Below the pieces are notes generated by a model, which had not been told where the DNA came from, searched no databases, and saw only the letters and a list, made by a program, of their open reading frames with translations. The translations under genes and the position numbers were made by a program. Positions 296-63,497 of a DNA stretch of 64,000 nucleotides are shown piece after piece. This stretch comes from Nereocystis luetkeana (taxonomy: Eukaryota; Sar; Phaeophyceae; Laminariales; Laminariaceae): contig JARUPZ010000023.1 in assembly GCA_031213475.1 (NCBI GenBank), positions 7,768,157 through 7,832,156 of the forward strand. The letters run 5' to 3'. The number at the start of each line of letters is the position of its first letter. The stretch's first letter is position 1.

Positions 296-334
<39 letters not shown>

Positions 335-560
335 ACCTGGTATATATACTCAAAAGTATAGTTGACTACCAGGTACACTGCTGTATATGCGCTCTGGTTT
401 TGTATACCTGGAAATACATACACACGGACCACGACAAGATCACAAGAGCACAAGGGTACCAACACAATGTATCAACATATATATACTCAAAGTATAGTTG
501 ACTACTGCTGTATACCAGGTATGCGCTCTGGTTTTGTATACCTGATAATACATATACACC
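236..560 (+). repeat. Local tandem duplication with TA-site micro-insertions
   Basis: Two diverged copies lie in tandem, about 236-436 and 436-560. Both run from a segment reading CACAAGAGCACAAGGGTACC through GCGCTCTGGTTTTGTATACC. The first copy carries an extra (TA)n tract at about 300-330. Both copies contain a 9-bp TACCAGGTA, but at different TA dinucleotides (367-375 in the first, 513-521 in the second), so these insertions followed the duplication. No gene is visible in 1-840. Confidence 0.8.
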
Positions 561-842
561 ACGGGGTAATGTGTAAAAAAACGGACTTCTTTTTAATTTA
601 TTTATGTACAACGCCGCACTTTTTCGTTCCATGTTACACTATTCAGAATAAATACTCGTACGAGTGGAAAAGCAGGTGCAAGTATCGTATTGGTGTGTGC
701 ATCTTGGCAGTACATCGTACTGGTATGATATTACACGAGGTACGTCTACGGGTATATGATATGGCGGATTTTTTCATGGCGGAATGTTTCGTGCCAGCAT
801 TTTTTTTCTGACGTTCCCGTGAGCAGATGAATATTACAACTA

Positions 843-917
843 CTCTAGACGGAAATATAAGGACCGCTTGGCCTTCATACTTCCATGTCTAGACGCTCCT
901 CATATTTCCGTCCAGAG
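843..917. mobile_element. Stowaway-like hairpin MITE (family 3)
   Basis: The 75-bp element has inverted ends, CTCTAGACGGAAATATAAGG on the left and the complement of CTCTGGACGGAAATATGAGG on the right. The CTCTGTCC-GGAAATATAAG type of terminus recurs at 7688 and 8606 and resembles the TIR of plant Stowaway (mariner-type) MITEs. Superfamily assignment is by resemblance only, and no clear target duplication is visible. Confidence 0.6.
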
Positions 918-1247
918 CTAGTGTATATTAATAGTGTAATAAGGCTATTATTAATATTACTATTATTATTAGTAGTTATGAGTAGAATGGAAAAGCGTAT
1001 CTACTTCGAAGTATCAATCCATCACAGGGGGGGGGTCGGATTAATGTGTGCAATCAGACGCGAGCCGAGCAGGGACGAGACAGCTCGATAACTTTTCGAG
1101 AGAAAAAAACGCAAGGAACGAACCGTACCAGGCGGTGGGGAGGGGGAGACAAGACACCTGTCATGTAGCTATATATATCCCTATATATATTATATACTCC
1201 GGAGTAGATATTATATATATATATGTATGTGACACCGCATCTGACTC

Positions 1248-1336
1248 ACCATTCACGACCGCAGTCCCATTTAGGGGACAAACCACTCAAATTCTAAGTA
1301 GTTGTCTCCAAAAGGGAATGCAGTGCCCTTAAAGAG
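1248..1336. mobile_element. piggyBac-like MITE (family 2), degenerate copy
   Basis: This decayed copy of the 95-bp palindrome keeps the core GACCGCAGTCCC...GGGGACAAACCACTC and the return arm. The terminal CCCTTTTAG and TTAA have been lost on the left. Confidence 0.6.
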
Positions 1337-2586: not shown

Positions 2587-3043
2587 TGACAGAAAACGAG
2601 AAAATGCGTCCACAGCATTTCGTTGCTTTGCCTTCCGACGCATTGGATAAAAATACAAAAAGGGTACATACACATACCAGGTACACACATATCACGATAT
2701 GCGTTTCATCATTCGCCCTCCGACGCAGGGCGCAAAAACAAGGGAAAAAAGCGTCCACAGGCCACAACAACACTTCGTTGTCCATTTACCCTCCCCTCCG
2801 ATTCAGTGACCTATCTTGTATACCTTGTATTTGTTGAAGGCAAGACCAGGTTCTTCGGAGGCAGTTAGCTATTTGCCCCCTCCAAGGCAGTGTAACTCAA
2901 GAAATTGCCTCATTTTTTGCAGTTTATTTTTGCCCTCCGAGTCAGTGAGTTGCAGCAGTAAAGGCAAGAGAATGCGCCACGTGCCTTTCGGTTGGGTACC
3001 TTCCGACGTAGTGTGACAACTACGAACAGTGGTCCGTCCTTCG

Positions 3044-3140: not shown

Positions 3141-3487
3141 TGTGCCCTTCGACGCTAGGGAGGAGAAAATAAGAAAATGCTTCGGAAGCCCATCGTCGTT
3201 GTTTACGTTCCGGCACGACATATTCTACTTCCTCGTTCTTCCTTTTTTGCTCTTTCGATTTGTTTCTTGGTTTTCTGTGTGTTCGTTCGTTCGTTCGTTT
3301 TTTGTTTGTTTATTATGTTATCTCTCCCAGAGAATGTGTATGTCGTGCCTGTCGCATACCAGGTATAGTTTAATGACATGGCATTGCATTGTCTACTCTC
3401 CTTACCGCACAACAACGTACTGCCGTAATAATAGTACATCTGTGGCGTAGTTTTGTGACCACATAACTTGTACCAGGTGGCTCTCTA

Positions 3488-4530: not shown

Positions 4531-5464
4531 GAACACAGTAGTTGGTACATCCAAAACATCGTGTGAGAAAGTATTGACACGTCCACGCGCGGAGAAGCCC
4601 AACGGGATATTATATGGACATATCATAAGAGCGTAACAGCAAAAACCCTTCCTGTATTCTGGGCTATAAAACCGGGTATGGACCAGAGGGAGGTACACAC
4701 CTTATACCTGATACCAGGTACCTACGTTACCGCAAATCAGAGAAGCGGATTACCGGGAGCACGCGACTAAGTCTTCAAAATTACCGCGATTGCAAAACTT
4801 ACCAGAGATACACCGGTAATCACGTGGTTTTCACGAGAGGACGTACAAAAACACATGTATGGTGCCAAGGATGTTATTTGTCCCCGTCCCCTGGGCTATC
4901 GCGTGGGGCGGGGGTCCCGCGGAAGTGCGGTAAGACTATCTTGTCATGGCTTCATCCCGCTCAAGCGCGGCTACCGCATTCATGTGGGGCCGGTCCCGCT
5001 TTAGTGCGGCCACCGCACTAATGGGGAGCTTTCACGCCACCACATATATACGTACCCGGTACAGAACAGACCAGCAACAACGCGTTATCAGCCATCTCAG
5101 CTTTTCGTACTGTGAAGGTGCTTTCCTACTGAGCTATAGGGGTAAAAGACCGGATCAATTAATTACCCAGTCCAGGGTAATCCTTATAACGCTCTCCCCC
5201 CCTCTGAACGGTGGGATCTATGGGGCGTCAGAACCGTATACATGCGTCTGTACGCTGGCCTACCCGCTTCGTTTGATTCCCTGGGGAACCAGGGAGAGTT
5301 GTTTTTCGGGATGCACGCGCAAGAGTTTCTATAAAAGAAACGTTCGACGTGAGGTTCGAACCCGTGACCCGGACGACGTCAAACGTGAAGGGGTTACGTA
5401 GTAAGCTTTAGGGGTAAAAGATCGATCGATTACCCAGCCCAGGGTAATCCTTAGAACAGTACTC

Positions 5465-9242: not shown

Positions 9243-10444
9243 AATGCAGGTTTACGTAGGAATGCGGAGTTTGTGGAGGCGTGAATGGCATTCGAATTAT
9301 TGGTTGACGAAGGGTAACGGGAAATCCGCGTACAAACATTCTACCGACAAACACCTCGTGTCACACTCGTCTCGCCTACGTAGCATACGAGAGCGAGGGC
9401 AGTCACGAGGAGGTCGGAGCAGAAGTACGGGGAGAACGCAAAGCTGACACCTCGGTGGGTGCTCGGCGGGGGACCGAGTTGAGCCTAACCGCAGTGCTGT
9501 GCTGTACGGGACAGCACGCCAATTTGAATTGATCGACTTTCCCACCCGCCCGCCCTGTCGCTAAAGAGAGGGGAGGGATCAGGTTGCAACAAGTCGTGAC
9601 GTTTGTTGGCTGTGATAATTACTTAGCCCCGCAAGGGAAGGAGCGGGGGCATAAGTTGTCGGGTTAGCCCTATTATTCTTGATTAAGTCTTCGTGGGGAG
9701 TTTTTTCTCTGTTCTGGGGGGTCTTGCTTCTTTGCGTGTTGTGTGATAAGGGGTTGGGGCGGCTTGCCCCAACACTCGCAATTTGTGCCCGCAGCGGTCC
9801 TGCCGGCATTGCGAAAACAACTAATAATCCAGAATTCTTGAGCCGTAGCAAATAAATGGGATGAGCAAATATATAATATATATATTATAATAATCTATAT
9901 ATTATATATATATATTGGTATAGTGCTGATATTGTCGGCTGGCGCATATCGCCGTTGCTTTGGACGGGCTCACTACGTATCAATCCTGCTGTACCAAAGC
10001 AGTGTACCAGGACTATTTCGGTTCTGCGCGCCCCCCTGGCTGTTGGGAACATCGTCCCAGAGGGGGGGCGTTATATCGGGGGTTGTAACGGTAACGTGGC
10101 GAGGATGGAATTTTCCGGAAAACCTCTATTGGCGAGCTTGAGAGTGCGGTGGTACGGTTTCATTTCCAAATCACGCTCGGGTGGAAGGCAGAAAGGCAGA
10201 GAGGACTATCAATAGAGAGGAGAATGAACGGAAAAATTGGCCGAATTAAAAAAATCACGTACCAGGTATCTGGTTGATGTCAGACAGCTGCATCAGTACA
10301 GCAGAGTAGGTCCGGGATTGATTTCGAATCGAACCCGATTCTTGATACATTCAGTAGTGGCATGCCACACCTTGCATACTCGTTCTCGTATATTAATGTT
10401 TCGTACTTACATTGATAGTTGATACTCGTATACCAGGTATAATA

Positions 10445-10548: not shown

Positions 10549-11138
10549 TACGAATACGAGTATAGTAGAAATATGGCACGTAATATACCAATAATTTCGT
10601 GTGTTGTGTGTGTGTCCTACTTCGTGCAAAGGGTACACATATGCTGGTGGCTGGTGGTGTATACGTTTTGTGGTCTGCCCATCCTGTGCGATGTTGTTCT
10701 TGTTTACCAGGTATGTTGGTTGTGGGCTGTGAGAGGTCTTGCTTGGACACTCGAAACTTTTTTTTTTCTTTTCTGCCCGATGCTTTTCGAGGTACAACAC
10801 CACCGTAACGTATAACTACCCGCTCTACCCGGTCGGGCGACACAAGATAAAAAAAACTCGCACGCCTCTTGAAACCCACCCTGTCTGTAATGAACCCAAT
10901 CCAAAAATAAATTCGGTTAACGGTCCGATTTTGATCCCGTCAAGGCCTCTCGAGAGACCAAATACCAAATACAGCAGCAGTGGTCTCTCTCTAGTACCGG
11001 TTACCGGTCGAAGTGTCATTGGAACGGTCTGGCACTCGGCACAGATGGGATTCACTTTTTGTTCTTTTTCTGTTCTTTGCTCCTCGTGTCTGTTCCCTCT
11101 TGGTGTTTTTCTTACTATTCTTGTTATTTTTCTTCATT

Positions 11139-12179: not shown

Positions 12180-14400
12180 TGAATTACGAAAAACATGTGT
12201 ATTGTTTTAAAAATCATTTTCAGTTGATAGTTGGATACCCCCCCCCCCCCCCCCCCCGCTGTCGTCTGGGTCTCGAAAATGGGTACGAAAGTACAAGGTG
12301 GGGTTGTCGTTTTCTTTTTTTACGTGCGCCCCTGGTTACATTCCTAATCGACAACAAACAAACAATTCTGAAACAGACCAAGAAAAGTATTACAGGCACC
12401 ATCTAATACCACGTGTACAATGCCAGGTCGCCCTATATACATACGTACTCGTACCATGCTCATAATGATGATGTTCTGACAATATTAATATTAATAGCTC
12501 ACTCCCCTAAAATCCTGCCTGTGGTCACAAAAACAGGCTGTAGAAACCAAAATTGCATCTCGATGGGAGAAAACAAATGGGTACCGTACGAACTTGTGCG
12601 CACGGCAGCATCGTACCAGTCCGTAAGGCGAACGGCACTACCTGGTATTAAATACCAGGTTGTTGTTGTTTGTTGTTGTTCTCACATTAACTCTCTGACG
12701 AAGGAGTCCGTGGTCACACAAAGGTGCTGGAGCCCTAGGAAGATCCGAAAAACCAAAAAAAAATCGAAAATTCTGCTGCCTCAAAATACACGAGACGGAA
12801 AAAGGTATGCCATCCCGGTATCACATGCGACCAAATAACAGCAGGAACAGATGTAATGATATAATACGTCCATGCGTAGTATATACGGACCACGATTCCG
12901 GCTCGCCTTCCTGGCCAATGAGAAGCAGTACAAACCACAAAGATTTTCCCTGGAGCGGGCACGCCGTGAAAGCCGGATACTGCTGGGGCGTCGTTTTTGC
13001 TGGTGTTGGTGTTGCCGTCAATTTTCAACTCGTGGCTACTGTCATACACCTCGCCAACCGCACGAATAGTAGGTGCGTGGTGCGTGATTATCACACGACA
13101 CAAGACACGCTTCGGACGTATGTACGCCAATCACGAAAAAAGGCGAGAGGGCGGTGTCTGGCGCCCGAGGGCCGCGTGCTGCGTACCAATTACCAGGTAT
13201 TTATATACGGGTACAGCAGTGACAGCAGCATTATTAATAATGACACCTGGAAAAAAAAAACATACTCGTACTCGTACGATACGCGTAGATTGGAGCTTCG
13301 AAGTAACAGGCAACATATACGCGCATACCGGTATTCTACGTATGCCGACATTAAATGTTTGCTCTTGCTACTGCTGTAGATTGATAATGATAGGCATATC
13401 CTTGGACGCGACTGCTGTGAGCTCGCACGGTCAAGGCGCGCTGTCGCGGTGGCTATGGATCTGCTGGGGCCTGTGGAGTTACAATTGGTAACATTCATGA
13501 AAAAAGAAGAAGTATGTTATTCGTACTTGTTCATATGGTTGTAGATACAAGAGGGGGGCTTCGCCGCGGCGGGCTGGCGCCCGGCTGGGCTCCGCGCATG
13601 CCCATAATGACAGAGGATGTACGTCGACAAATCGAGGCGAGACCGTAAATGTGACAGCAAGTGGTACGTACTCGTACTGCAAAGGGAGTGCGTTCTACGC
13701 CCTTCGCAAGGGGAAAAGTCGTCGAGTGCTCGGATGCATGAAGTCATCGCCAGTTTTATTTTCGGGTGCAGGTTGACGATTTCCTCGCTCAACCTACCGT
13801 AGGTGTACTTCCGCGGACAGCAAAGAGCCAGAGGTTCTCTCTCCCGAGCGAGCGGCGAGCAGAACAACGTAGCATACGTTCAACACAGCGGCACCCTTCG
13901 TGGCTGTAACTAGGGCCAGCCAGAGCTTGAAGCGCGGCTGCTGTACCGTGGCTGTCTATACAGTCTCTTGAGGCCTGCTGTGGGCTGTGGTACATCAGGA
14001 ACAGCAGCACAGCAGGGGTGTGAGACACAGACAATTTGGGGTTTCCATGAATCTGCTTGGCTTTAGCTGAGCGGAACGTCTCCCCGCGATACTATACTTG
14101 CCAGATTTCGCGCCTTCGAACGCCCAGAGCACGCACCACGGAGTCCGGCCATGACCCACACTTGTCACCGCGGTGTACACGCGAGCCCCCTGCGCGCCCC
14201 GCAGCCGAGGGCGGGAGGAAAGACCCGCGGCCGGAGCAGAAAAGTAAGAGTATTCCGACAAAACAAGTCAATACGGCACATAAGAGTAGTAAAACTAACA
14301 ATGATATACTAAGGATATCGGGTTGAGGAACCTGGTCAGTCAGAAATACTTTGGGCCAAAAAGTGCTATACCTGGTATACCCCTATCGTAGCAGTGGGTT
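12180..14400. other. Intergenic DNA without a recognised gene
   Basis: The block holds a long C tract (about 12237-12257), several TACC(A/T)GGTA sites and AT-rich sequence. An antisense ORF at 12735-13130 has plausible composition but no family match. A 75-bp stretch at about 13590-13665 resembles 35110-35190 (GAGGATGTACGTCGACAAAT against AGGATGTACGCAGACTAAT), and may be a diverged repeat or a coding relic. Confidence 0.5.
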
Positions 14401-16260: not shown

Positions 16261-17456
16261 AACCAAAGATCGGCCTGAGTTTTTCTCAAGCCGATGTTGG
16301 CCCAACATCGGCCCCAGATTTGCTTTTTTTGGGCTTTTCCAAAAGTTAGGAACCTTTTTTTTTTTACGTGGCCCATAGGAAGCGTGTTCTGAATTTTTTT
16401 GGCGGGTATCTTTGAAATTCAAACTTTTCATTGAAACTTCGCTGTCCCATTGGCATAGGTCTAAATGGCTGAATAAAGGGCATACGTCGACGCATATGAG
16501 ATATACCATCGGACGTAACAACTACTATACCATCGGACGTAACAACTACCAGGTACTGCTGTTTTGTGTTACCGGTAACCGGTACGTCGTCACCGGTAAC
16601 CGGTACGTCGTCACCAAATCACATTTTCGACATACTTGTACTCGTATATACCTACAATACTTATCGGTATGTACGTACACTTATATTTAAAGGGATACGT
16701 ATGCACTTAAAAACAGTAGTAGTGCGCGGGTCATTGCTGCGGATACGCACAGCACTTACGAACAGCAGTATTAGTAGTACTTTGCGCAGGTCATTGCTGC
16801 TGCAGTGTAGCGGGCAGGGAAAGGTCGAGGGTGAGCTCTACTCGCACTGCAGCAGCCGCTGCGCGCGTGTCGTGTGCTGCGAGCTGTGAGCTGTGAACAC
16901 TGCTCCGCATATACCGTTATGTACGAGTACCACCAAGAAACCAAGAGCCGAAGTAGCCTCCAACCCGAGGACCAAAATTGCGATGTATCCGTAAAAAAAC
17001 GCCGGAAAATCCCCTTCGAGTACGCATTTTGCCGGATCGTTTCAACCATTTTAGAGATCCAAAACGTATCCCCTACGGGTATATATACCAAAAAAACAAG
17101 AAAAAAACAAAAAAAAACAGATACGTATTATTCCCAAGTTGTTTGCTCCAAATGACTGGTGCAGTCAAAAAAACAAGTACCTGGTATACAGCTACACACT
17201 ACTGCGGTAGACTGCTGTTTCGAGCCTGCGTCGAAGAAAAATACCCCCAGAAACGTTCGCCCGCGGCACAAAAAGCTCCGCAACAATTTTTTGGTCTGCG
17301 GCGAAACGTGGTCTTCTCGCAATATATAAGAGCTAATCCGGCCTATATACGGCTGTTTGACCGCGACCGAGTTCGACAGCATACGGGGGAATAAATTCCT
17401 AGTTTTGTTTGAAATCCGTGTTTCGGGGTTGTGCTCTCGAGATAAAAAAACAAGCA

Positions 17457-17786: not shown

Positions 17787-17911
17787 TTACCGGGGGCCAT
17801 AGTTGATACCAGGTAGGACCTACGGTACAAACAAAAAACTACCAGGTACCAGGTATATTTTGCCTATTTTTGCAAACAATATTTGGTCCTATTTACTATC
17901 GTCCCCCGTAA
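17787..17911. mobile_element. TA-type MITE (family 1), copy 5, with three CCAGGTA insertions
   Basis: Compared with other copies, the left arm reads GTTGATACCAGGTAGGACC instead of GTTGATAGGACC. Near the centre, AACTACCAGGTACCAGGTA replaces AACCTA. This amounts to one single and one tandem double TA to TACCAGGTA conversion in a single element. Confidence 0.92.
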
Positions 17912-21690: not shown

Positions 21691-22549
21691 CACACAGAAC
21701 GACAGGGGGTACACATACATTCTATGAAAGAGAAAAAACAAAAGAAACACTCGTGCGGCGTAGTAGGCATCAGGCCCACCGCTGGGACGAGCGAGTGTAT
21801 GTCGATGTGGCGGGTCGTATGATGCCAGGTATGTACGAACTGTTTGTACAGCAGTAGTATTACGAGTAATAGTGCGGTTATGTGTTCGTGCAGGGTCTAC
21901 AGGGGCAGTGTACGTGCATATGGGCCTCTGATTAACGCAAAATTCGGCAAAAACAGTTCAACGCTATTCAAGCTTTGAGACAATGGTTACGCCTCGGTCT
22001 CATGTGCCGGCATAATTTCTATAATTTCTGGGGTAATTCGCCTTTCCAACCCCCAAGTAGATGTATCATTGCGAGCAGAATCAGGGCTAATAATAGTACC
22101 GGTAACATCGTACTTCTTTTCACGTAGGAGCAGAATCGCTACGTAGAATATTTTGATAATTCTGCGCTAAGGTTCGTAGTCATGCACCGCCGTTTATAGG
22201 CGGTGGTATTACTTTTTTAGTTTGCTCATATTTGCGCTGTCTTCATCTCCTTCAGGAGAGTACCACACTTTTTCGTTTTTGTTTTTTTCCGACTGTTTTC
22301 CTTTGTTTCTTTCGACTTTCTCTCTTTTATTGGATGTGTTGTCGTGCCTGTCGTATCCAGTACGATGGGCATTGCATAGTTGACTTAGTGTACCAGGTAC
22401 TGAATAAGACTATCCCGGTAGGTAAACAGAGTACGAGTACACAGCAGTAGTAGAGGTTGTATCTCTTGTATTACCCAGGAACGAGTCGGGGAACGTTCTT
22501 GAAGGGTCCTCCAACCCGGCCCAAAGGTAAGGCCTCATTATGGGTCGGG

Positions 22550-23961: not shown

Positions 23962-24321
23962 GAGGCCCCCCTCGAGATCAGTGGTCATCAAGCTTTTTTC
24001 TCCAAATAGAAGTCGAGAAGAAGAGGCTATTTGAGACACCACCCGCCCAACCTTCAAATAAGATAAAAACATGATACTTGGGACTCCAGGTATTCCCAGA
24101 CCTGGTTTTCTAAGTTTTTCTTCTCTAAAAACCGACGGCCGGAAAAAGATCCGAGTGTCCGGGTTTCTGTATCTTCGAAATATACAAGATACCCAAACGC
24201 TCGGAGGCTATTTTCGCCGAGGGGGTGACAGCACCGACCCTTCGGTAGGTGCTTCCACCATTCTTATCCCACACTACCTGGTATATCAGGAGAAGAACTG
24301 GCCCAAGAAAACATGCGGATT

Positions 24322-26700: not shown

Positions 26701-26976
26701 CGCCATAAAATATACCAGGTACCTGGTACTTTTTTATAAATGGACGAAGAGCGTAGGACGTCGCGGCCAACCTCACGCCCCCTAGACCACGGATTCCAAT
26801 TGTACCTCCGAGGCCAGCTTGTATACTCATTGGCCTTATCCGGTAAGAACCGTTGACCGTGGGGTTGATTATTTGTCGAGATCAAAGGTCAATCGTCGCG
26901 GGATTGCGGGTGTGTGAGCTGCGAGCTGTGTGCTGTGTCTGTCTTGCTGTTTGTGTGCGGCGTGATTTCGCGTTTT

Positions 26977-27636: not shown

Positions 27637-27835
27637 TATTACAGTATTACCCACATGGACAACTGAGAAGACACAAAGTCTGCGATTTGTACTTATATTT
27701 CTCCTCTGTATTGATATTAATCGTTGTTCAAGGGGCCTCGAGCCAGCAGACCAGTGACGGGTTTATTCACAGACTATGATACATAAAGCGGTTGGGCGTA
27801 ATGAAATTACGTACCAGGTACAGGGTACCGAGCTA

Positions 27836-43209: not shown

Positions 43210-43240
<31 letters not shown>

Positions 43241-44279
43241 TCGCGACGATGTCGACGTGGATGTTACTGCCGACGGCAGGTCTCTTGCTCCGCGACGGAG
43301 CCGCCGAGCTCTCAGTCGAGCCTCTGGAGCTCTCAGTCCTCGTCGCTCGAGAGGGCTTTAAGCGCGGAGGTGAGCAGAGTAGCAAACCAGCGCATTGATT
43401 GATTGTGATTGGACGAAAGCCCTCCAGCAGTCGTGACACCGCATCGCATCGCACGCGAGTTGCTGTGTCATGTCTTGGGGCGTGTTTCGGGCCTTCACGC
43501 GCCTCTTGACATAACTTCGCGCCTCTTGGTGATATGTCACGCCTCTTCTGGTAATCGCGAGTCCCTCGCCTATTCGTGAAAGATCGCGACTCTTCGTGAT
43601 ACATTGCGCGACTCCGTGATATACCGCTACTCTTTCGAAAAAAAATATCGCGAATCTTCGTGTAATATCGGGGCCCGTTCGTGTAATTTCGCCGCTCACT
43701 TTTGGGGCCTCTTCGCTCGTTTTCGTGTCTCGTCTGTTCATTGTTGGGACTCTCTTGCGTGCGACCGGCAGCCCCCCCCCCCCCCCCCGGCTCGTCGACC
43801 CCCCTTGGTTGCACTTGATGGCAGTTTCTTGTGTACTTCTTGCGGATGCGTCGTTCGCTTCCGGTGCTCTGCTTCTTTCTGACGGCTCGTCACCGTTGCC
43901 CTCTAGAAACTTCTGCACGTTTTTTATCGATTTCGCTCCGCAAGGGCCGCTGCTGCCGCTGGTGCTGCTACTGCGTCACCGTGACAACCCCCGTCGGCAG
44001 CGTACCAGGATTGTGATTTATTCTTGCGCGGGCGAGCGGTTGAAGAAAAGCAGTTTCTAAACCTTTTCCGCGGCCGTAGACTATATAAACTACCTGGTAT
44101 ACGAGTATAGACTATGCTATTCTTGATCCGTGGGCAGTATTCTTATATTGCTGTGTAAACGCGTTATCGATAGTATTTAGATGACGAACCTTTTGTCTTC
44201 TCCGCTGCTCCGACTTCCTCAAACGGCAACAGGCACCGCAGTCGCCGCCGCCGGAGCAGATGCAGCAACAACAGCAAAG

Positions 44280-44313
<34 letters not shown>

Positions 44314-44881: not shown

Positions 44882-44929
<48 letters not shown>

Positions 44930-46413: not shown

Positions 46414-46457
<44 letters not shown>

Positions 46458-48700
46458 GAGGAGTGCCGTTGTTGTAGTGCAGCCTGGTGGCTATGTATCA
46501 AAGAGCGAGCGCCAGTTTTTTCGTGTTTGCGCTCGGACGTGCTTGTGGCCGGTGCTTGTGCCTGTTGCCGCGTGTGTAAAACGAGCATTTTGTTATTGCA
46601 CTCAAATCAGGTTTGGCCCCCCGGCGGCCTCGAATCGACGCATTTTCTTTGGGGTATACGTTGAATGGCAACGGTCCAAAGTGCGCCTCGTACACCTACG
46701 ACAGTAGTTTTCGACCCAAACTATTGGAACCACCTCTGTACCATTGCTGGCTCCATGTGATCGGCTCTCGAATTTTCTTCTGTTTTTTTTTATTTTCATC
46801 TTTCCTTCCCTTGATTTTTTTTCTTTCACACGCCTCTCTTTTTTTTTTTTTTGTCCGGCGCAATGCAGAGATAGATGTGCGTGAAGTGTGTGCGTGTTGT
46901 TTGTCCAAAATGGGTGTGTTTGCGTGTGTATTGAGGCCGAGCGCGGCGGCAGGGGGTTGGGGGAGAGGGAGGGGGTTGGGTAGGGATTGTGAGCGCTTGC
47001 AGTGCGTCTGTTTTGTCACGGGTGAAGTAGAGGATGCTGATGCGGTTTTGTTTTGTTTTTCTTCTTCCTCTTCCCCTGCTCCGACCCATTGATTGCTTGT
47101 TGTGCGATTGAATTGCGCGCTTTGCCTTTTGCTTTGCTGTTTGCTTTGCTCCCGCCGCCGAAAGCCCCACGTGTGTGCGTGCATGCGTGTGGTGTTTGCT
47201 GCCTTTCGTTGTTTTTGTGAGCGATGAGCGCCAAGGCGGGGAGGGGGGGGGGCGGGGGGGGCGGTGATGGTGACATGGTGGCAGTGGTTATAGTGGTGGT
47301 GATGGTGACGGATGATGTAGCGCGCTGTCCGCGTCAACAAGACGGAGGGCTGTTTGTTGCTTCTGCTACCGCCGACGCTGCTGCTGCTACTACTATAGCT
47401 GCTGCTAGCAGCGGTGTCTACGCTATACCCTGTTATCCCGCGTTGTTGCTCAATCCCCGCCGAATCGTGTACTATTGCTCGCAGGCCATCACCATGGAAA
47501 GGGGGGGGGGGGTGGGCGCCAAGGGTGTCAACTTAACTATTTATTGTTGCACGTACATGGACGTGCTTGCTTAGTCGGTCGGTCGACCCGCTTGCTTGAT
47601 CGAAGAGAACGATAACAGTACAATCGATCGATCGCCGGCGTCTGATTCGGAACAAGCGACGAGCCTAGCGTAGCCTACCCTAGCCCCGCCAAAAACACGG
47701 GAGAGATAGAAACGAGGAGCGCAGAAGCAGCAGGGGAGAGCCGTATGAGTCAGCGTAGAGGAAAACATGTTTGCGTCGGTTGTTGGTCGCTAGCCGCGGG
47801 TCGCGCGCGGTTAGCATGGCCGTTGGTTTTGGCGGAGCAGAGCTAGATTCGTTTTTGCTTAGTTTCCCTTGAAATAGTATGTACCCCCCGCGATGTCGGT
47901 GTACATGGCACAGGGTGTCGCGATGTCGGTGTACATGGCACAGGGTATCGTCTCAACTATTTTATAGGGGGGGGGGAGGGGAACGAATAACAGTACTCGT
48001 AGTACATACTCGTAGCAGTTATTTCGTGGTTGCTAATCCTTTGCTGTGAAGTTGTATTTCTGCTCTCGTAGACTATACTACCACCTGCTGCTGGCTGCCA
48101 GGCTCCCCGGCGGGTGCTTGTTGCTGTTTGTTGCTGTGGTATATCAGCTATCTATACTATCGTCGTACCAGGTATGATGAATGCAACAGCCAGTATTCTT
48201 ATCGTATGTAGGCGTTTTTGTTGCTGTTGTTGTTGTTGTACTATAATAATGATAATAATAATACTACGTGCTTCCAGTAAGTGGCGGCGTGGTTGGTTCG
48301 ACCCGTCGAATTGGCGGGAATGGATCGATTTTTTCCTCAAAAATATAACATTATCGCAATCTCGTGATGAAAATATCTGCGGGCGAATCGCTCTATAAAT
48401 TAGACTATCACTCACACTGCATAACCGCTTACCAGGGTATTTCATTAATCGACATTGCACACTGGCATCTGTATTATTCTGCAAGTCAGTACACTCTGTA
48501 ATGGAGCAAGTATCGTGAAAAGCGCCGAGTCAGCACATGGGTACGATCGTCGTTTTCAGCGCTGGTTTTTTGTCGACCACGACGGTGAAAATAAGGGTGT
48601 TTTATTAAAGTCAAACATTTTATTGTTTCTCTCCATCAGATATTTCCGAAAAAACGCCTCATTCTCAATTTATAAAACTGAGTCGCTGTTTCGGTGATTG
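45673..48700. other. CRC gene 3' region and intergenic DNA
   Basis: Long G tracts (45730-45770 and 45800-45812), a (CTG)n run at about 46408-46459 and T-rich sequence are present, with no recognised gene. A 34-bp tandem duplication (GCGATGTCGGTGTACATGGC) lies at 47889-47949. The 3' UTR end was not assigned. Confidence 0.5.
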
Positions 48701-49428: not shown

Positions 49429-49538
49429 TTACGGGGGACCATAGTAAATAGGGACCAAATATTGTTACTAAAAATAGCGAAATATAGTTTTTGTGTGTAC
49501 CGTAGGTCCTATTTAATACCAGGTATGGTCCCCCGTAA
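49429..49538. mobile_element. TA-type MITE (family 1), copy 8, with CCAGGTA insertion
   Basis: TA on both flanks. In the right arm TTTAATACCAGGTATGGTCC stands where the consensus has TTTACTATGGTCC, a TA to TACCAGGTA conversion. Confidence 0.92.
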
Positions 49539-51429: not shown

Positions 51430-51959
51430 CTTGTTGCGGTTCACGGTGCCGACTGATCTCTCTGGTCACTCTCACCGACTCCAACTGCGACGTCACAAAA
51501 AACGACAAGCAAACTAAGAACAGCGCTCGAATGCATTTCTTCGGGGGCACTAACAAAATTCGATATTTTGGCGAAAACTTCCCTGTTGTGGAAAAAAAGT
51601 CGAACGCTGAAAACGATCGCCTCCACCCCTGTGTGAACTCCACACGCTCTTTACGGTAAAAGTACAGGTAGCATCAAGCAAGGGTGACCAGAACAAACAA
51701 TATAGTATACTATATACCAGGTACTATAAATAATAAAATCAGCTTTTTGTTGTTGTAATAATAGCTGTACGAGTAGTATTAATATTATTATGTACCTGGT
51801 ATGGTAACTTTCGCCGGTCGGGGACACGACATCATCATTATTGTGTCATTTGATGTAACCGAGCGGGATCACGATGAGATAATAATGGTCTTGGTTTTGT
51901 TCCTGGTCTATAAACGACTTGCATTCTATTTCGCTATCCCTCCCCGATATCTCCGTCTG

Positions 51960-52380
51960 CGAAGAGACTAAAAAAGCACACCCTTTTTTCGAAGTAGAGA
52001 CTGAAAGCACCTACCAGGTATTCGAATCAGCGCCTGGATGTACCTTTTCGAACCAGAGGCTGGATTGTAATTTTACCTTTTCGAAACGGAGGCGGATTGT
52101 ACCTTTATTACCTTTTCGAAACAGGGGTTGATGTACCTTTGTTCAAAACAGAGGTAGACGTTCTATTACGGGGGGCCGTAGTTAACAGGACCAAATATTG
52201 TTAGTAAAAATGGTTAAACATATAGGTTTTTATGTATACCATAGGTCCTGTTAACTATGGTCCCCCGTAATAGTCAGTTAGGGTGTATCTGTTGGTTCGA
52301 ATCAGAGGTACGTTGTACCATTCTTTCCGAGTAAGAGGTAAGCGTATGCTCACTTTTCTTTTCAAATCGGAGGTACATAA
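51960..52380 (+). repeat. Degenerate TACCTTTTCGAA-type array with a MITE insertion
   Basis: Units of about 30-40 bp share TTTTCGAA(A/C)CAGAGG and TTGTACC. A family-1 MITE (52166-52270) has inserted into the array. Confidence 0.6.
52166..52270. mobile_element. TA-type palindromic MITE (family 1), copy 9
   Basis: Both TA flanks present (52164-52165 and 52271-52272). Internal sequence near consensus. Confidence 0.92.
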
Positions 52381-52775: not shown

Positions 52776-53149
52776 CCAGGTACTACCTTTCATTTCACAT
52801 CAGAAAAAATGCGCTCACCTCGTTTTTCAAAATCAGAGACGTACCAGGTACCAGGTACCAGATATTATTATGTACGCGCCAGTCGGGGACATTCCGGCCC
52901 CATTTTTACCGCTAACGCCATCACAGCCCTCACTCCCCCCCATTACCACCACCTCGCCCCCCCCCCCACCCCGGCCACCACCGCAACCGCGATATGCCAT
53001 GTCCGTATCATACGATCGCCGTCTACGGCAGTCTACTGCTGTACGAGGTACCTGGTACGCAATAATCGTACGAGCAGTGCCGCGGGGAACGGCCCACCGT
53101 GGCTCAAGCAGGCAGGCGAGAGAGGGCAAATAAATGTGCACGGGCGGCA

Positions 53150-53921: not shown

Positions 53922-54032
53922 TTACGGGGGGCCATAGTTAACAGGACCATATATTGTCAGTCAAAATGGTTAAACATATACCAGGTAGGTTTTTATGTGT
54001 ACCACAGGTCCTGTTAACTATGGTCCCCCGTA
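53922..54032. mobile_element. TA-type MITE (family 1), copy 10, with CCAGGTA insertion
   Basis: The consensus AAACATATAGGTTTTTATG appears here as AAACATATACCAGGTAGG followed by TTTTTATG, so a TA was converted to TACCAGGTA. Confidence 0.92.
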
Positions 54033-54159
54033 GTACCAGGTATATCGAAGGCGGACAGAACCACAAACAAACGGAGATAGTATGTGCCACAACAGCCGGA
54101 GATATTTGGACAGCATGTGGATGATGATACCACTGTGATAAACGGAGACGTCGTTAACG

Positions 54160-57745: not shown

Positions 57746-60700
57746 GCAAGGCCGTCGAATTTTACATTTGTTTGAAACGAGGGTATCATGCGGGTCAATC
57801 CGCCAAAAAACACAAGAAAAAAAAAAAACACGAACAACATGCAAAAAGCCGCTAGAAAACAAAAAAATGTGTACCATGGTACACTTTATTGGGGTCAAAC
57901 CACTGTTCGCGGGCGAATACAACAGTTGAAAAGGGCTATAATACAGCTTGCAAACAGAAAAACAAAAAAAAAACTACAAGCAATAAAAAACTTTTGTTGT
58001 GCGTTGCGGATGCTGGCAGTATACTCGATACCGCTGTTTCGTGGCGTTTAGAACCGCAGTCCCGTTTTGGGGACAAACTACTTGATATTTGAGTGGTTTG
58101 TCCCCAAAACGGGACTGCGGTTCAAAAAGGGTTAAAGTCGCTCACCTGCCTTTAGCGTCCCATGCCACCAGGGCGCCATTGATCTCCTCCGCTATCCTGA
58201 GCAGAAACAAAATGAGCCACGGGTGGAAGGCACATCCGGGGGGGGAGGGGGGGGGGGGGGGGGGGGGCGTCGCAACCGGGAACACGGCCGAAGTGATCAC
58301 CAGGCAGGTAATTATCACCAGGAAGGTAATTATCACCAGGTAGGTAATTACCACCAGGCAGGTAATTATCACCAGGAAGGTAATTATCACCAGGCAGGCA
58401 ATTATCACCAGGCAGGTAATTATCACCAGGCAGGTAATTACCACCAGGCAGGTAATTATCACCAGGCAGGTAATTGCCACCAGACAGGCAATTATCACCA
58501 GGCAGGTAATTATCACCAGGCAGGTAGGTAATTTATGCGATGCCACAGAACAGCAGTACGATATATGATTCTGAGAATATAAATCATACACTTCGTGTGC
58601 GGTACAGATTATTGATAGTACGATATATCTGATATTGTAGAGTAGACTGGTATGCTTCGAAGCATCGTACCGAGACACCAAAAGAAAAGTGGGTAGACGG
58701 ATGAACTGAATCGACGCTGCTCGCCTGGTGCCTGCCTCTGCCCGTTGGACCCGCACCCCATAATATTATACCAGGTATGCCATTAATTGTGACATTATCG
58801 CAACAACAATATCGCGATGATATGTGACGACAACGTACCATCATGGCATTCACCATCACATGATTGGATACCGCAGCACCCACAAAAATCATGTGAAATG
58901 AATTCCTCATCACTCATCGTGTGATGTTCGTTCACATCGCATATCACGCTCGATATATCACGTGATACAACGCGTAGCATGTATACCGTATATTATATAT
59001 TACAGGTATTACGGGGAACCATAGTTAATAGGACCAAATATTGTTAGTAGAAATGGCTAAATATCTAGTTTTTTATGTGTACCATAGGTCCTATTAACTA
59101 TAGTCCCCCGTAATAGCAGAAATATCACCTGATAAATATCACACCAACCCCCTAGAAGAAAAGACTCACACATATATACCAGGTACACCAGCAGCAGCAG
59201 CAGTGGGGCTATAGTGTGCTTGGTTTCAAGAACTCGCCTTTTGCCGACAGGGTGGCTGTCCATATGCCCGCACCACGCCTTTAATCGGGGCCCCAAAAAG
59301 TCCTGCCTGCCGAACTTGGGCATCATGAAGAGAAAGAACAGCACAGTCGGCCACGCCGTCGCGTCCGCCAGGGACACTTCGGACCCCGCCAAGAAAGGCC
59401 CTTCGCCGCTCGCGAGCTCCTCCAGGATGGAAAGCTGAGTCTGCGATTATTTGCGCGTTTTGAATCTCTTGTCATGAGAAGTGTTATGTAACCACACGTA
59501 CACATTGCGTATATACCAAGGTGTACGTACATTGCTGGAAGCATATAAAAGACAGTGGAAGCCACAACATGAAGGGAACGGAGGAGAAGGGGAAGAGAGG
59601 AAGGGGGGGAATGGGTAGAGTTCGGGGTAGGGGGGGTGTACTCGATAGGAGAGGTGTATTCCATCTCATGCATGGCCGTAGTCGTATGACCATAGGGGGA
59701 GGGGGGGGGGGAGGGGGGGCGGAGGGGGGCGAGCGGGGAAGAAGGGAGAGTGGGGGAGAGAAGTGGGGGGGGGGGGGGGGGGGTACTCGATAGGAGATAT
59801 GTACTCGATCTCATGCATGGCCGTAGTCGTATGATGGGGGAGGGGGGGGGGGTGTACTCGATATCATGCATGGCCGCAGTTGCATGACCATCGACCCTCG
59901 CGGGGGGGGGGGGGGGGGGGGGCGTGAACATAGCTTGGTTGAGCAGGAAAGGTGTGGAGTGTGCGAGTCGGGTACATCCTTCGGAACAGCGAAGTGCAGT
60001 TGTGACTCTTACTCGTAACGCTTTTCGTTTTCGAATATTACTACTGCTTGAAGTGTCGTGTTGTGCTGTCGAGGGTGATAATATACTTCGAACTACAGTA
60101 TGTATCGGGTATAAATATCTTCCTGCAATGAAAATAATTGTAGCAGCTTCGGGCAGTCCAAAAGTGGGTCCTGTGCGGCATCAATATCCCCGATTTTTTG
60201 TTAGCGGCTGCTTGCACCACTCCCCATGATGCAAAGCGAACAGCAGCGGTTCCATGACGCGCGCTGTAGACTTGTCGACGGAATCAGCGCAGCATATGTG
60301 CCGCGTCAGGGGGCTTCGCTCGGTATGCATTTTTGCTCTCCCGTGCTTGGAGTATGGCAGCTTACCTCGAGGTCTTTGAAGGCCGCAAGTCGGTCCGAAT
60401 GAACTCCAAACGGAGGAGCGAGTTTGTACAGGCTTCCCTGTGAACAATAAAAACAACGAGCAAGCATGCAAAGAAGCAAGCAAGAAGCAAAACGAATAAA
60501 CAACCAAACAAATGAACAAAACGATCAGACAAATAATAGACAAACAGACAAACAGACGAACAGACAAACGCACGTGTTGCACAGAAAAGCGACGGCACAA
60601 GGGAAGCAAGCAGGCAGGCAGGCAGGTGGGTACGGCGGGGCAGCGGGAAGAACAAGATAATGTGTCATAGAGAGCTCAGCTGCCGCCGCCGCCGTCGGTG

Positions 60701-62726
60701 ACCTCAGAGGGACGCACGCAGCGGGTAGGATGTGACACCACGGGTCAAACTATACCACTTAAGAAGGTCTTATGTTAGGATACTATACGATACTGTAGGT
60801 AAGTGAATTAATACCAGGTACATATATACACTACCAGGAAGAAAAGAAAAACGGGTCTAGATACCTCTCCCCAAAATACTGCAAGTATTCTGAAAAGAGC
60901 GAGCCTGATTTGGTCGGACTCCCGGTCTAAACTTACGTGAAAGCACGTATCAAACACAGTTTCGGGCAAGTTTTTCGGTTTTCAAAACCCTCCCATAAGA
61001 GATGGCCTAAGAAGGGATTATTCCCCGATATAGATTATTTCCGGCTTCGGCTCACAGAGGCCACCATCCGAATCCGGAACTCTAACATTAACCCGATCCC
61101 TAACCAGAGGTGTACTCGGTTTATTAATAGTGTGCCAGCTTGCCGATGTGCTTGGAATGGCTCTAATTGCTGTTCGGGCGGCACCGCTTATTGAAGTGTT
61201 TGATTAAAAAAAAATCGTCCTCGGTCGGAACCCGGAAACCCCGAGGAGAGCGGCGATCGGAATCGCCGTGTACCAGGTATGCCATATCGTGATACGAGTA
61301 ATAGTCTCCTTTTTGCTTCCCTGGTGTCCGCAGTGGTGGAGTGCGTATGCTTGTTTTTTGTTTTTTTGCCTCTGTTTTTTACTTGAGGTATTTCTTCCAC
61401 TCCAGAGTTATTGGAGCCTGTCCTGCGACCACGGACTGCATTGAATTGTGAGTTAATGTGAGAACAACAACAACAACAAACAACGATGCAATAACCTATC
61501 GTGATACCCGTCCAGGGCTATTTTAGGCCCATCATGGGGCAAAGCAGGGCCAGGGCTGGGGCTATACGGCCAGGCCCTCCTCCCATCAACATAGCAGTAG
61601 TCTCAGGGCTAGACGGCTGCTGCTGTTAACTAGTGCTAGAGCCATAGGGACTAAGGCTATAGACCTACAGTACCTATATACCATGGTCAGTGCCACAGGC
61701 CTAGACCTACGTAGGCTATGGGCTATAAAGCTAGGCCTACTACTGCAGGACGACCAAGGCCTGTACGGCTATTACGGGGGACCTTATACCTGGTAGTAAA
61801 TAGGACCAGCATTGTTAGTAAAAATAGGTAAATATGTAGGTTTTTATGAGTACCATAGGTCCTATTTACCATGGTCCCCCGTAACAGGCATACTATTAGT
61901 AGGACTCCAAATTGTCTAGGGCTAGGCCTTCTAGGGTTATGTAGGACTATAGTGTAGGGCTATCCTACTATTAATAGGACTTCTGTTGATAGCGCTAGGA
62001 CTACAGGCCCAGTAAGGCAAGCTGTAGGCCTGGCTTTCTAGGGCTAGCTAGGTTATAGGCTTAGGTCTCCTACGGCTAGAGCTTATTAATAGCGTTTTAA
62101 TACTATCACGATGGCCTCGAATATATACGCCCAAAAACAGGGGGGGGGAAGAGCCCCCCGATGTACTTCTGAAAAAACAAATGTAGCATCGATGGAAACC
62201 CTATCACCAACATCAACCGCGTATTTTTGAGACAGACAGCATTTTCGATTCACGCAGTGGTTCTTGGAGATACAACGCACCAAAGCGGGCGACTAGGGCT
62301 TATTTTGGGGCTATTTACTACCTGGTATGGGTTTCTGTGATGGGTTTTCTAGAGCGATGTAGGTGTACTACAGGGCTGGGGGGTTGAACGCTTCGTAGAG
62401 CTGGAGCTACAGGGCTAAGACAAGAGAGAGCTTCGTACTTGAAGCTGCAGTAGAACTACCATTAGGTTGTGCGATACTGGGTGCAGGGCTAAAGATAGAG
62501 CTACGCAGGGGCTATACATAACCTACAGCAGGGCAACACCTGCAGAGCTGCTTGGAGATACTATCATGTTCGGGGTTCAACAACCTGTCGCTGACATGCG
62601 CACAGGAACCCCAGTATACATACCTGTATGGGGTGGATGTACGTGTCGAAGTGCCGGCAGATGGCATCGGCCTTCACACGGCTCTCCAGCGTCGACGGTC
62701 GGAAAGAACAGCCCTTGTCCTCGAAC
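54613..62726 (-). CDS. Glutathione S-transferase (C-domain) fused to HINT-type HIT domain
   Basis: Seven minus-strand exons join in phase: 62726-62624, 60437-60366, 59434-59238, 58196-58146, 56091-55969, 55266-55105 and 54677-54613, giving about 257 residues. The first four encode a GST C-terminal helical domain (FEDKG, RHFDTYIHPIQ, LAGSEVSLADATAWPTVLFF, LKAWCGHM, NGALVAWDAKGR). The next three encode a HINT/PKCI-type domain (SIFDKIIAKEIPSTLVFEDD, DISPVAPTHILIIPKE, VVINDGAKGGQ and the triad HLHMHLIG, whose middle His is the expected nucleophile). HINT enzymes hydrolyse nucleoside phosphoramidates, and GSTs conjugate glutathione. The WDAKGR|WEDIIHAGKK join is phase 2 to phase 2 with no start or stop between, which argues for one gene. 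The GST thioredoxin-fold N-terminus and the final HINT exon (expected to carry a WPPG-type end) were not found. Two adjacent genes remain possible. Confidence 0.72.
55105..55266 (-). CDS. GST-HIT gene, HINT central exon
   Basis: 162 bp from GTGTGCAG| to TTCAG|GTGGGA. It encodes DISPVAPTHILIIPKERNGL, then TQLRHATADHAGTLGYMLEV and QEGLEGF. Both boundaries match HINT family phase and spacing. Confidence 0.88.
55735..55932 (-). repeat. R6 repeat, reverse copy ending in a C tract
   Basis: The reverse complement of R6 (GCGCTTCGCGCTTGG, CGACATGCTCCGTCCCGGCA, GACTACGGCCATGC) runs into a C tract of about 25-30 at 55903-55932, in the intron between HINT exons. Confidence 0.7.
55969..56091 (-). CDS. 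GST-HIT gene, fusion exon (HINT N-terminal part)
   Basis: 123 bp from TTCGAAG| to TTCCG|GTGAGC. It encodes WEDIIHAGKKDTAPASIFDK, then IIAKEIPSTLVFEDDRVLAF. The first base completes Arg with the AG of the GST exon. A start codon lies 19 bp upstream (ATGGGTTGGCTTCGAAGG), so an independent HINT start cannot be ruled out. Confidence 0.8.
56697..56730 (+). repeat. (TACAG)n tract
   Basis: Seven tandem TACAG units. The array has the form expected if TA to TACAGTA conversion happened repeatedly at the newly made TA, although ordinary slippage is an alternative. Confidence 0.7.
56829..56931. mobile_element. TA-type palindromic MITE (family 1), copy 11
   Basis: ATACGGGGACCATAG and CTATGGTCCCCCGTAA ends, TA right flank. 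Lies 15 bp from copy 12. Confidence 0.9.
56947..57051. mobile_element. TA-type palindromic MITE (family 1), copy 12
   Basis: Both TA flanks present. It is oppositely oriented to copy 11 as judged by the asymmetric centre, so the two are separate insertions and not a duplication. Confidence 0.9.
57192..57289. mobile_element. piggyBac-like MITE (family 2)
   Basis: TTAA on both flanks, CCCTTTTAGGACCCCAGTCC and GTGCGGTTCTAGAGGGG ends. Confidence 0.9.
57718..57745 (+). repeat. (TA)n microsatellite
   Basis: A run of TA dinucleotides in the GST-HIT intron. Similar runs lie at about 278-345, 9870-9915, 31937-31963 and 63436-63461. Confidence 0.9.
58047..58135. mobile_element. piggyBac-like MITE (family 2)
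   Basis: TTTAGAACCGCAGTCCCGTT and AACGGGACTGCGGTTC arms, right flank TTAA. It ends 11 bp from the GST exon at 58146-58196, next to its donor. Confidence 0.87.
58146..58196 (-). CDS. GST-HIT gene, last GST exon
   Basis: 51 bp from TTCTGCTCAG| to GGCAG|GTGAGC. It encodes IAEEINGALVAWDAKG, the conserved GST C-terminal helix, and leaves phase 2. Confidence 0.82.
58240..58267 (+). repeat. G homopolymer tract
   Basis: Almost uninterrupted G run, 30 bp upstream of the 18-bp minisatellite. Confidence 0.9.
58297..58530 (+). repeat. 18-bp minisatellite (AGGTAATTATCACCAGGC)
   Basis: About 13 units with few variants (GGAAGG, GGTAGG and TTACC/TTGCC changes) inside a GST-HIT intron. Each unit carries CACCAGG-CAGGTAA, related to but not identical with the CCAGGTA insertion motif. 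It is open in plus and minus frames (NYHQAG and VIITCL repeats) but not a gene. Confidence 0.92.
59009..59113. mobile_element. TA-type palindromic MITE (family 1), copy 13
   Basis: TTACGGGGAACCATAG end, both TA flanks (59007-59008 and 59114-59115). It lies in the intron between GST exons, 125 bp from a coding exon. Confidence 0.92.
59238..59434 (-). CDS. GST-HIT gene, GST core exon with GC donor
   Basis: 197 bp from GCAGACTCAG| to AAAAG|GCGAGT. It encodes LSILEELASGEGPFLAGSEV and SLADATAWPTVLFFLFMMPK, then LKAWCGHM. The donor is GC rather than GT with otherwise good consensus. Using it joins VGKR to IAEEI in frame. Confidence 0.85.
59600..59935 (+). repeat. Short R6 copies separated by long G tracts
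   Basis: At least three R6 5' segments (59632-59695, 59781-59835 and 59852-59900) each follow a G run of 8-20 and share CTCATGCATGGCCG(T/C)AGT. They lie in a GST-HIT intron. Confidence 0.75.
60366..60437 (-). CDS. GST-HIT gene, GST exon
   Basis: 72 bp, phase 0 at both ends: TTCACAG| to CTCGAG|GTAAGC. It encodes GSLYKLAPPFGVHSDRLAAF KDLE, which continues PIQ|GS from the previous exon as in many algal GSTs. Confidence 0.82.
61500..62540 (+). repeat. Degenerate TAGGGCTA/TAGGCCTA array
   Basis: GGGCTA, AGGCCTA and CTAGGGCTA words recur every 10-30 bp for about 1 kb, without a fixed period. Palindromic AGGCCT elements are frequent. Interrupted by a family-1 MITE at 61772. Confidence 0.6.
61772..61884. 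mobile_element. TA-type MITE (family 1), copy 14, with CCTGGTA insertion
   Basis: The left arm reads GGGGGACCTTATACCTGGTAG where the consensus has GGGGGACCATAGTAAATAG. A TA has become TACCTGGTA. Flanks TA and CA. Confidence 0.9.
62624..62726 (-). CDS. GST-HIT gene, first GST exon found
   Basis: 103 bp from TTTTTGAAG| to ATACAG|GTATGT. It encodes FEDKGCSFRPSTLESRVKAD, then AICRHFDTYIHPIQ, the interdomain linker and first C-domain helix of a GST. It enters in phase 2, so an upstream exon carrying the thioredoxin fold is required. None was seen in 62727-64000. Confidence 0.8.
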
Positions 62727-63104
62727 CTTCAAAAAGCGGAAGGGAGCGTCGGCGAGGCAGGAAAATACAGCAGTGCAATAGGCATGAGACGGCGAGCACC
62801 ACGGTCCGTGTTGAGCGGATGGTACTTGTGTGATATGAGTGGAGTACTCATGAGCTATAGATATAGATATTATAGTTTGCAGTTTCGTAGCCTGTGGAAT
62901 ACGAGTACAAGAATAATCCAAAGAATGGATTAACCCGGCGGATATTCCGTTATTTGAGAGTAACGTTCTTTCAGGAATGTTCTCTAGGGCGGATAGCCCG
63001 TTAGACAAGGGTAGTGTTCAGATAGGGCCATAACGTGAGAAGTTCTTATATTAGCAGAAGAACGATCGGTATCCTCGGCCATATCTTCACACTTGTAACT
63101 CTAG

Positions 63105-63185
63105 GATTGGAGAATCGGCACGGACAATGGTTGTGCTGGATGCCGACGGGTAGAAAGAACGGTTTGATGTTGAGAACACACACAG
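63105..63185 (+). repeat. Dispersed repeat R7
   Basis: GAGAATCGGCACGGACAATG, GCCGACGGGTAGAAAGAACG and GTTTGATGTTGAGAACACAC blocks. Confidence 0.65.
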
Positions 63186-63214
63186 CAGTGCAAGCAATAC
63201 CACCAGGTAGAAGA

Positions 63215-63380
63215 CAACCATCGTATTAGACGGGGCATGGTCAATGGTCAACCATCGTATTAGACGGGGCATGGTCAATGGTCAACCATCGTATTAGACG
63301 GGGCATGGTCAATGGTCAACTATCGGATTAGACGGGGCATGGTCAATGGTCAACCATCGTATTAAACGGGGCATGGTAAT
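63215..63380 (+). repeat. 34-bp tandem repeat, five units
   Basis: The unit starts CAACCATCGTATTAGACGGG and ends GCATGGTCAATGGT. Units 1-3 are essentially identical, the fourth has CTATCGGATT and the fifth ATTAAACG, so it is a recent minisatellite. Confidence 0.93.
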
Positions 63381-63497
63381 GCGGTGGTGCCATTTATCGA
63401 GCCAAAACATACACCTGGTACGTGCCTACTTATAATATATATATATATATATATATATTATGTTTAGTAGGGGTATGATGCGTTCGACAAGTGGTAT

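Follow-up and report, generated by a model that had tools for sequence, protein, structure and literature searches.

On one strand, the cut made by Tc1/mariner transposases lies a few bases within the element; this leaves short 3' overhangs, and joining of these ends produces footprints (PMC8151067, PMC7827188, PMC2874221). Footprints of Sleeping Beauty, Tc1 and mariner carry a short, end-derived core between two TA dinucleotides, formed by end joining (CAG for Sleeping Beauty; PMC8151067), and a central A/T ambiguity is also described for Sleeping Beauty (PMC2874221). For Mos1, the oligonucleotides of PMC2642840 give the terminal inverted repeat as TA followed by CCAGGTGTAC; cutting is placed at +2 and +3 in the same source, and a three-base stagger is described in PMC5481204. 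Stowaway elements of the Triticeae left Tc1/mariner-type scars between TAs, and a TA from an earlier scar was used there for a second insertion (PMC1925063). Extreme genome-wide density of a short palindrome is otherwise described for HIP1 of cyanobacteria (PMC4390886). Here, a 64-kb stretch of Nereocystis luetkeana DNA (contig JARUPZ010000023.1 of assembly GCA_031213475.1, positions 7,768,157 to 7,832,156, forward strand), referred to as the window, was analysed for the nine-base palindrome TACCWGGTA (W, A or T), which is like HIP1 in shortness and density and like the transposon footprints in its core between two TAs and, as for Sleeping Beauty, in its central A/T ambiguity.

The differences from these systems are as follows. 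In contrast to the footprints of Sleeping Beauty, Tc1 and mariner, the core is CCWGG, and about 180,000 copies per genome are far above the footprints in the available excerpts of those sources. Unlike the Mos1 case, the searches described below gave no mariner transposase match or convincing Mos1-like repeat, and the main form has a core of five bases. The Stowaway case comprises several different scars in one intron, whereas one uniform word is found here genome-wide. Unlike HIP1, the word is made by insertion at TA, and CCWGG alone is not enriched.

Exact TACCWGGTA was counted 55 times in the window (36 TACCAGGTA and 19 TACCTGGTA; Table 1), in agreement with a preliminary description of this DNA that had claimed more than 40 sites. 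TACCTGGTA is the reverse complement of TACCAGGTA, so that both are one motif on two strands, for which equal numbers of A-centred and T-centred single sites are expected (61 of each were found). Markov estimates of the window expectation were 0.58 and 1.1. Simulated order-1 and order-3 sequences contained on average 0.58 and 0.83 sites with a maximum of 3 (60 runs each), and order-5 simulations a mean of 15.7 and a maximum of 25, this last model being trained on the motif itself. In the 465-Mb genome, 182,395 sites were found, 105 times the 1,744 of the reversed control word. This corresponds to 0.39 sites per kb (one per 2.5 kb), about half the density of 0.86 per kb in the window. With C or G in place of the central A or T, 10,882 sites were found genome-wide (control, 1,899). 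By an order-3 model and with low-complexity words filtered out, no other 9-mer of the window was as enriched as TACCWGGTA, which also ranked first in a pooled set of 307 kb after thinning of similar contexts. The pooled set consisted of the window and the fetched loci L010-L038 and L040-L042 (L039, which duplicates L038, was omitted). Sampling was not random: L010-L013 were chosen for composites of the word and L034-L042 for transposase matches.

Eight of the twelve positions cited in the preliminary description were exact, three (31768, 53048 and 59178) were off by one base and one (17849) by two. At 63420, given there as the end of the range, only a TACCAGGTG half-site is present, and the last exact site begins at 62319. 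The statement that the word saturates the intergenic DNA is strong, as 36001-44000 is empty and the GC-rich stretch 36001-48000 has one site, where about six are expected from the TA count. That the word does not belong to one repeat family was confirmed: flanks are diverse, without common flanking sequence, and a strict filter kept 63 of 153 contexts as distinct. Some sites do fall in repeats. Together with mutational decay of the word and its presence at different points of one repeat family (see below), the distinct contexts nevertheless make it barely credible that the word belongs to a dispersed repeat family or stems from faulty assembly.

TACCWGGTA sites are insertions. Comparison of homologous repeat copies showed a change from TA to TA-CCWGG-TA, which is a gain of seven bases. 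In one repeat with two copies (approximately 340-560), the seven bases stand at a different TA in each copy, the other TA being empty (sites 367 and 513). A family of miniature inverted-repeat transposable elements (MITEs) of about 105 bp, of which the window has many copies, bears the word at various TAs; gaps relative to other copies were 7 bp at 17807, 49517 and 53979, 12 bp at 17840/17847 and 9 bp at 61787. Alignment gaps of 4-16 bases between copies of repeats were also listed without bias; of the 28 gap rows, nine, from five places, overlap the word, among them three of the five gaps of seven bases. An ungapped homologous empty site was obtained for 14 of 150 sites (50-bp flanks), and the best copy had TA at the junction in 12 of them. 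Under a rule requiring TA, empty copies were found for 10 of 150 CCWGG sites and 12 of 812 other TA-N5-TA sites, from which low-complexity cores had been excluded (Fisher P 0.0008). Many of the empty-site matches come from the one MITE family and are not all independent.

The bases around the insertion point form a symmetric signature in both halves, with a purine before TA, A at -6 and A/T at -7. Among the 94 half-sites of 47 collapsed targets in the window, T was present at -1 in 3 (17.5 expected), A/T at -7 in 76 (50.5 expected) and A at -6 in 40 (23.6 expected). These positions were picked after inspection of the window and were retested on 24 outside loci (L014-L037). Here T at -1 was found in 8 of 158 half-sites (30 expected), A/T at -7 in 129 (84 expected) and A at -6 in 82 (41 expected), and none of 20,000 resamples was as extreme. 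The -7/-6 pair was TA in 76 of 274 half-sites. Target consensus sequences of DDE/D recombinases, where present, are usually palindromic (PMC5481204), and the targets of TACCWGGTA look like transposase targets. A weight matrix built from them was used to score the flanks of other words.

An iterated palindrome of the HIP1 kind, made and kept by a CCWGG methyltransferase together with mismatch repair, was considered because CCWGG is a classic methylation site and the word is palindromic and dense. One-base deviations from the word are moreover somewhat commoner in the outer TA (excess 45, four positions) than in the inner bases (37, five positions), and in HIP1 one-base deviations are likewise commoner in outer positions (PMC4390886). 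Outside the word, however, CCWGG is at expectation (662 vs 631), other pairs of CCWGG flanks reach at most 11 occurrences against 153 for TA..TA, and sites arise by the 7-bp gain; for these reasons we regard such an origin as highly improbable.

Our interpretation is that TACCWGGTA is the excision footprint of a TA-targeting cut-and-paste transposon of the Tc1/mariner type, and we give this a probability of roughly two in three. The transposon would insert at TA with duplication of the TA, and its terminal inverted repeats would begin with 5'-CCA, probably CCAGG. Excision would leave the terminal bases as 3' overhangs, either CCA, as predicted from Mos1 ends with a three-base stagger, or CCAGG if the stagger were five bases. 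Joining in which a central base stays unpaired, overlaps or is trimmed off would then yield TA-CC(A/T)GG-TA. With CCA ends, overlap of the two terminal bases or loss of one of them would give CCAGG or CCTGG; if CCAGG were cut with a five-base stagger, the overhangs would anneal except for a mismatch at the centre and give CCWGG, in analogy to the inferred origin of CAG in Sleeping Beauty. If both filled-in CCA ends were joined, the rarer TA-CCATGG-TA would result, and more trimming would produce CCAG/CTGG and perhaps CCGG, with both bases lost. Very many hops would be needed, in which the TAs of earlier scars would be re-used to form composites of period 7. We infer that a larger element once occupied each site, as well as the ends of this element, its superfamily and its present rarity or extinction. 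As an excision footprint would, the word lies between two TAs, shows a symmetric target preference and has an imprecise-joining variant, TACCAGTA, at like targets. A specific, genome-wide insertion process, as proposed in the preliminary description, is thus borne out by the 105-fold excess over control, the diverse flanks and the 7-bp gain at TA. Its term insertion was right in effect; the seven bases are best read as the remnant of a departed larger element and not as a 7-bp mobile element.

Variant words were counted with respect to this mechanism. Six-base cores (TACCWWGGTA) occur 5,159 times genome-wide (control, 1,529), and 3,002 of these are the CCATGG form TACCATGGTA (control, 623), which is compatible with CCA ends; the remaining 2,157 are CCTAGG plus CCAAGG/CCTTGG. 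For CCA ends the count of TACCTAGGTA would be near its control, unlike that of TACCATGGTA. By eye, 50 distinct TACCWWGGTA places, all from the beginning of a single contig and not randomly sampled, were assigned to CCATGG (35), CCAAGG/CCTTGG (10) and CCTAGG (5). The surplus of CCATGG points to A as the third base of the end. On the target matrix, high scores (mean 5.68) were obtained for two TACCATGGTA sites of the pooled set, a number too small to carry weight. The one-base-short word TACCAGTA was in excess (37 vs 9.2) and carried the target signature (z score 5.1 for all 39 sites and 4.8 for the 32 that have no scar word next to them), and TACCGGTA was in excess as well (19 vs 4.6).

The main rival is direct micro-insertion, in which CCWGGTA would be added at TA without any larger element, by an enzyme such as an abortive transposase, a repair polymerase that copies a template or a nuclease that nicks TA and brings in a fixed filler. 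It would fit the insertion evidence and the target signature equally well, and no donor was visible in the up to 342 kb searched. We know of no micro-insertion process of such a kind, and excision repair predicts the A/T preference at the centre, the derived words with CCATGG and CCAG and the resemblance to a mariner end with CCAGG, so that we consider this explanation unlikely.

One-substitution forms of the word were about threefold enriched in the window (37 vs 12.6 expected). In the pooled 307 kb, approximately 82 excess one-mismatch variants per 153 intact sites were found, or about 6% per position, which indicates decay of the sites and a mixed or moderate age. This bears on programmed DNA elimination, by which a domesticated TA-specific transposase would remove elements like ciliate internal eliminated sequences from the soma in every generation. 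Such a process would account for 182,395 scars without resident elements. The variants suggest inherited scars of mixed age instead, and known ciliate elimination systems leave a bare TA; both arguments are weak, but they leave programmed elimination quite improbable in our view.

The composite TACCWGGTACCWGGTA, in which two words share a TA, occurs 15,917 times genome-wide against 2 for its control. This is about 12 times the number under uniform use of TAs (about 1,300, as we estimate for 182,395 sites and a TA density of 53 per kb). Scars should be re-used, since a scar supplies a TA seven bases from its own end, as the preferred target often has. Among 59 composite places listed by eye, 40 had the same orientation, 14 the order A-T and 5 the order T-A, a departure from the 1:2:1 of independent choice among the rows listed. 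We tentatively propose a self-seeding scar, in which each excision would build a better landing pad, so that scars would give rise to more scars, and one lineage of TA transposons would have remodelled the intergenic DNA with about 180,000 uniform marks and left few or no copies of itself; this extension of the excision-footprint reading is possible but doubtful. The tandem composites also bear on a selected protein-binding or regulatory motif. A palindromic, dispersed word would suit such a role, but its occurrence inside diverged MITE copies, its frequency of one per 2.5 kb, its origin by insertion and the composites make this very improbable.

For the donor element, at most 40 sequences (342 kb, less than 0.1% of the genome) were searched. 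The sequence downstream of half-sites (36 in the window and 124 in 276 kb) revealed no donor end. Three half-site clusters were rejected as element ends, as the similarity continues on both sides and places them inside longer repeats; repeat D15 and a pair at 8056-8365 of L030 were donor-like at first but proved not to be the donor. Scans for terminal inverted repeats picked up composites, inverted repeats of large size and members of other families, but nothing that had CCWGG ends. The Pfam domain DDE_1 gave 28 genome matches. Inverted repeats were sought around 16 of them, which lie on 15 loci (L034-L048); for L039 this was confined to a comparison with L038. L041 and L042 had recognisable ends, and L034 and L036 share the end TACAGTGGGGGG. 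L041 (1036-3223) and L042 (1022-3253) hold 2.2-kb DDE_1 elements of about 90% mutual identity with intact 27-bp terminal repeats, TACAGTACCGGCC(A/C)GCTAGTAAGAAAC. These elements are like the postulated donor in their TA flanks and inverted repeats and unlike it in their ends (TACAGTACCGG...). By domain and end they are presumably pogo-like, and they would leave a TACWGTA-like scar, not TACCWGGTA. TA-flanked transposons therefore exist in this genome, and none of those seen fits the scar. The MITE end had no match in viral and prokaryote contigs; nine viral contigs contain the 16-mer.

Several results weigh against an excision footprint. Half-site and inverted-repeat scans of at most 342 kb found no TA-flanked element with CCWGG ends. 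DDE_3 (Tc1/IS630) had no match in the genome with 30 candidates scored, while the control matched in 3 of 14 genomes; Transposase_1 and HTH_48 (mariner) had none either, but the control genomes also gave none. The recognised DDE_1 ends begin with CAGT and not with CCWGG, and scars would outnumber resident elements to an extreme degree. In the empty-site comparison, the best copy lacked TA in 2 of 14 cases (TC and GA), and at site L018_3428 only 1 of 21 alignments had TA. The target signature of TACCGGTA was weak (z 1.9 over 19 sites; 1.7 without a neighbouring scar word). AT-rich cores framed by TA score high on the target matrix, as they must, and TAGGACCTA, a word of the MITE family, reached z 5.4 over 14 sites. 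The single-overhang products TACCATA/TATGGTA were barely enriched (44 vs 37.6), which speaks mildly against the simplest three-base version, and the doubled core TACCWGGCCWGGTA was rare (27 vs 3), which speaks mildly against the simplest five-base version. The data are compatible with a three-base and a five-base stagger alike and do not decide between them.

Other dispersed words are over-represented in the pooled 307 kb, namely TACTCGTA/TACGAGTA (63 vs 10.3), TACTGCTGTA (24 vs 0.8), CTACWGTAG (23 vs 1.75) and words of the palindrome ACTATTAATAGT. Scars of several TA transposons may coexist in this genome. On the target matrix, TACTCGTA (z 1.7) and TACWGTA (z 0.2) were near background. We take TACTCGTA/TACGAGTA to resemble a Minos-type scar; as a candidate for one it was set aside, being without the -7/-6 target signature.

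Positions of the sites are collected in Table 1. Within the scar-poor GC-rich stretch of the window, an open reading frame at 39717-40436 (+) encodes a Tesmin/TSO1 CXC domain (PF03638, E 1.1e-12). A probable glutathione S-transferase exon (PF13410, E 1.9e-8) lies at 59060-59446 (-), and a dense tandem array with units of 26, 15 and 11 bases of TCTGTCTGTCAGTCG-like words at 48702-49112. A hairpin MITE family is represented at 3045-3147 and by about a dozen similar copies; the hairpin MITE copy in L038 has the ends TTAACCCTTTTAGAACCGCAGTCCCG, which we take to resemble a piggyBac-type TTAA target. In L043, two 1.9-kb arms (203-2090 and 3704-5591), each with a DDE_1 match, are 100% complementary and 1.6 kb apart. 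The small contig C809 is identical to contig C2 over 4,982 bases (100%; L038/L039), so some small contigs are duplicates.

Table 1. Positions of TACCWGGTA and related words in the window.
Position	Word	Observation
334..342	TACCTGGTA	
367..375	TACCAGGTA	Copy A of the repeat; first TA filled, second empty
513..521	TACCAGGTA	Copy B of the repeat; second TA filled, first empty
2675..2683	TACCAGGTA	
3357..3365	TACCAGGTA	TA in 0/6 homologous empty alignments, best is TC
4712..4720	TACCAGGTA	
10260..10268	TACCAGGTA	
10431..10439	TACCAGGTA	
10705..10713	TACCAGGTA	
12639..12647	TACCTGGTA	
13191..13199	TACCAGGTA	
14369..14377	TACCTGGTA	
16547..16555	TACCAGGTA	
17178..17186	TACCTGGTA	
17807..17815	TACCAGGTA	Within MITE copy; TA at junction in 15/21 empty alignments
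17840..17855	TACCAGGTACCAGGTA composite	MITE copy of the 17807 site, other TA
22391..22399	TACCAGGTA	
24275..24283	TACCTGGTA	
26713..26728	TACCAGGTACCTGGTA composite	
27812..27820	TACCAGGTA	
28207..28229	Triple composite (A,T,T)	
28330..28338	TACCAGGTA	Followed by TACTGG TACTGG TA (one-base-short words)
28518..28526	TACCAGGTA	
28604..28612	TACCTGGTA	
29293..29301	TACCAGGTA	
29397..29405	TACCTGGTA	
29427..29435	TACCAGGTA	
31767..31782	TACCAGGTACCTGGTA composite	
31969..31984	TACCAGGTACCTGGTA composite	
32000..32015	TACCAGGTACCTGGTA composite	
32939..32947	TACCTGGTA	
44091..44099	TACCTGGTA	
48166..48174	TACCAGGTA	
49517..49525	TACCAGGTA	Within MITE copy; TA at junction in 31/33 empty alignments
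51715..51723	TACCAGGTA	
51793..51801	TACCTGGTA	
52012..52020	TACCAGGTA	
52842..52857	TACCAGGTACCAGGTA composite	
53049..53057	TACCTGGTA	
53979..53987	TACCAGGTA	Within MITE copy; TA in 17/18 empty alignments
54034..54042	TACCAGGTA	End of the MITE copy holding the 53979 site
57872..57881	TACCATGGTA	Rarer six-base-core form, as CCA ends would predict
58769..58777	TACCAGGTA	
59177..59185	TACCAGGTA	
60812..60820	TACCAGGTA	
61271..61279	TACCAGGTA	
61787..61795	TACCTGGTA	Within MITE copy; gap to other copies 9 bp or 4 bp, no clean 7
62319..62327	TACCTGGTA	Single empty homolog is GA, not TA

As a kind, a Tc1/mariner-type footprint is known, and what is remarkable here is the scale. Literature searches on the word, genome-wide footprints, Minos and mariner footprints, brown-algal elements and iterated palindromes showed nothing comparable among the papers listed, which is no proof that the word is unpublished. 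Genomes are usually read for transposon copies; excisions leave almost nothing and are seldom counted. The proposed CCA... ends together with the target signature provide a precise handle for a hunt for the element. If the excision-footprint reading is true, a uniform, datable scar records about 180,000 events, and excision rate, repair outcome and target choice would be readable from the genome. Cut-and-paste elements would then be able to shift the word composition of a genome to a HIP1-like level.

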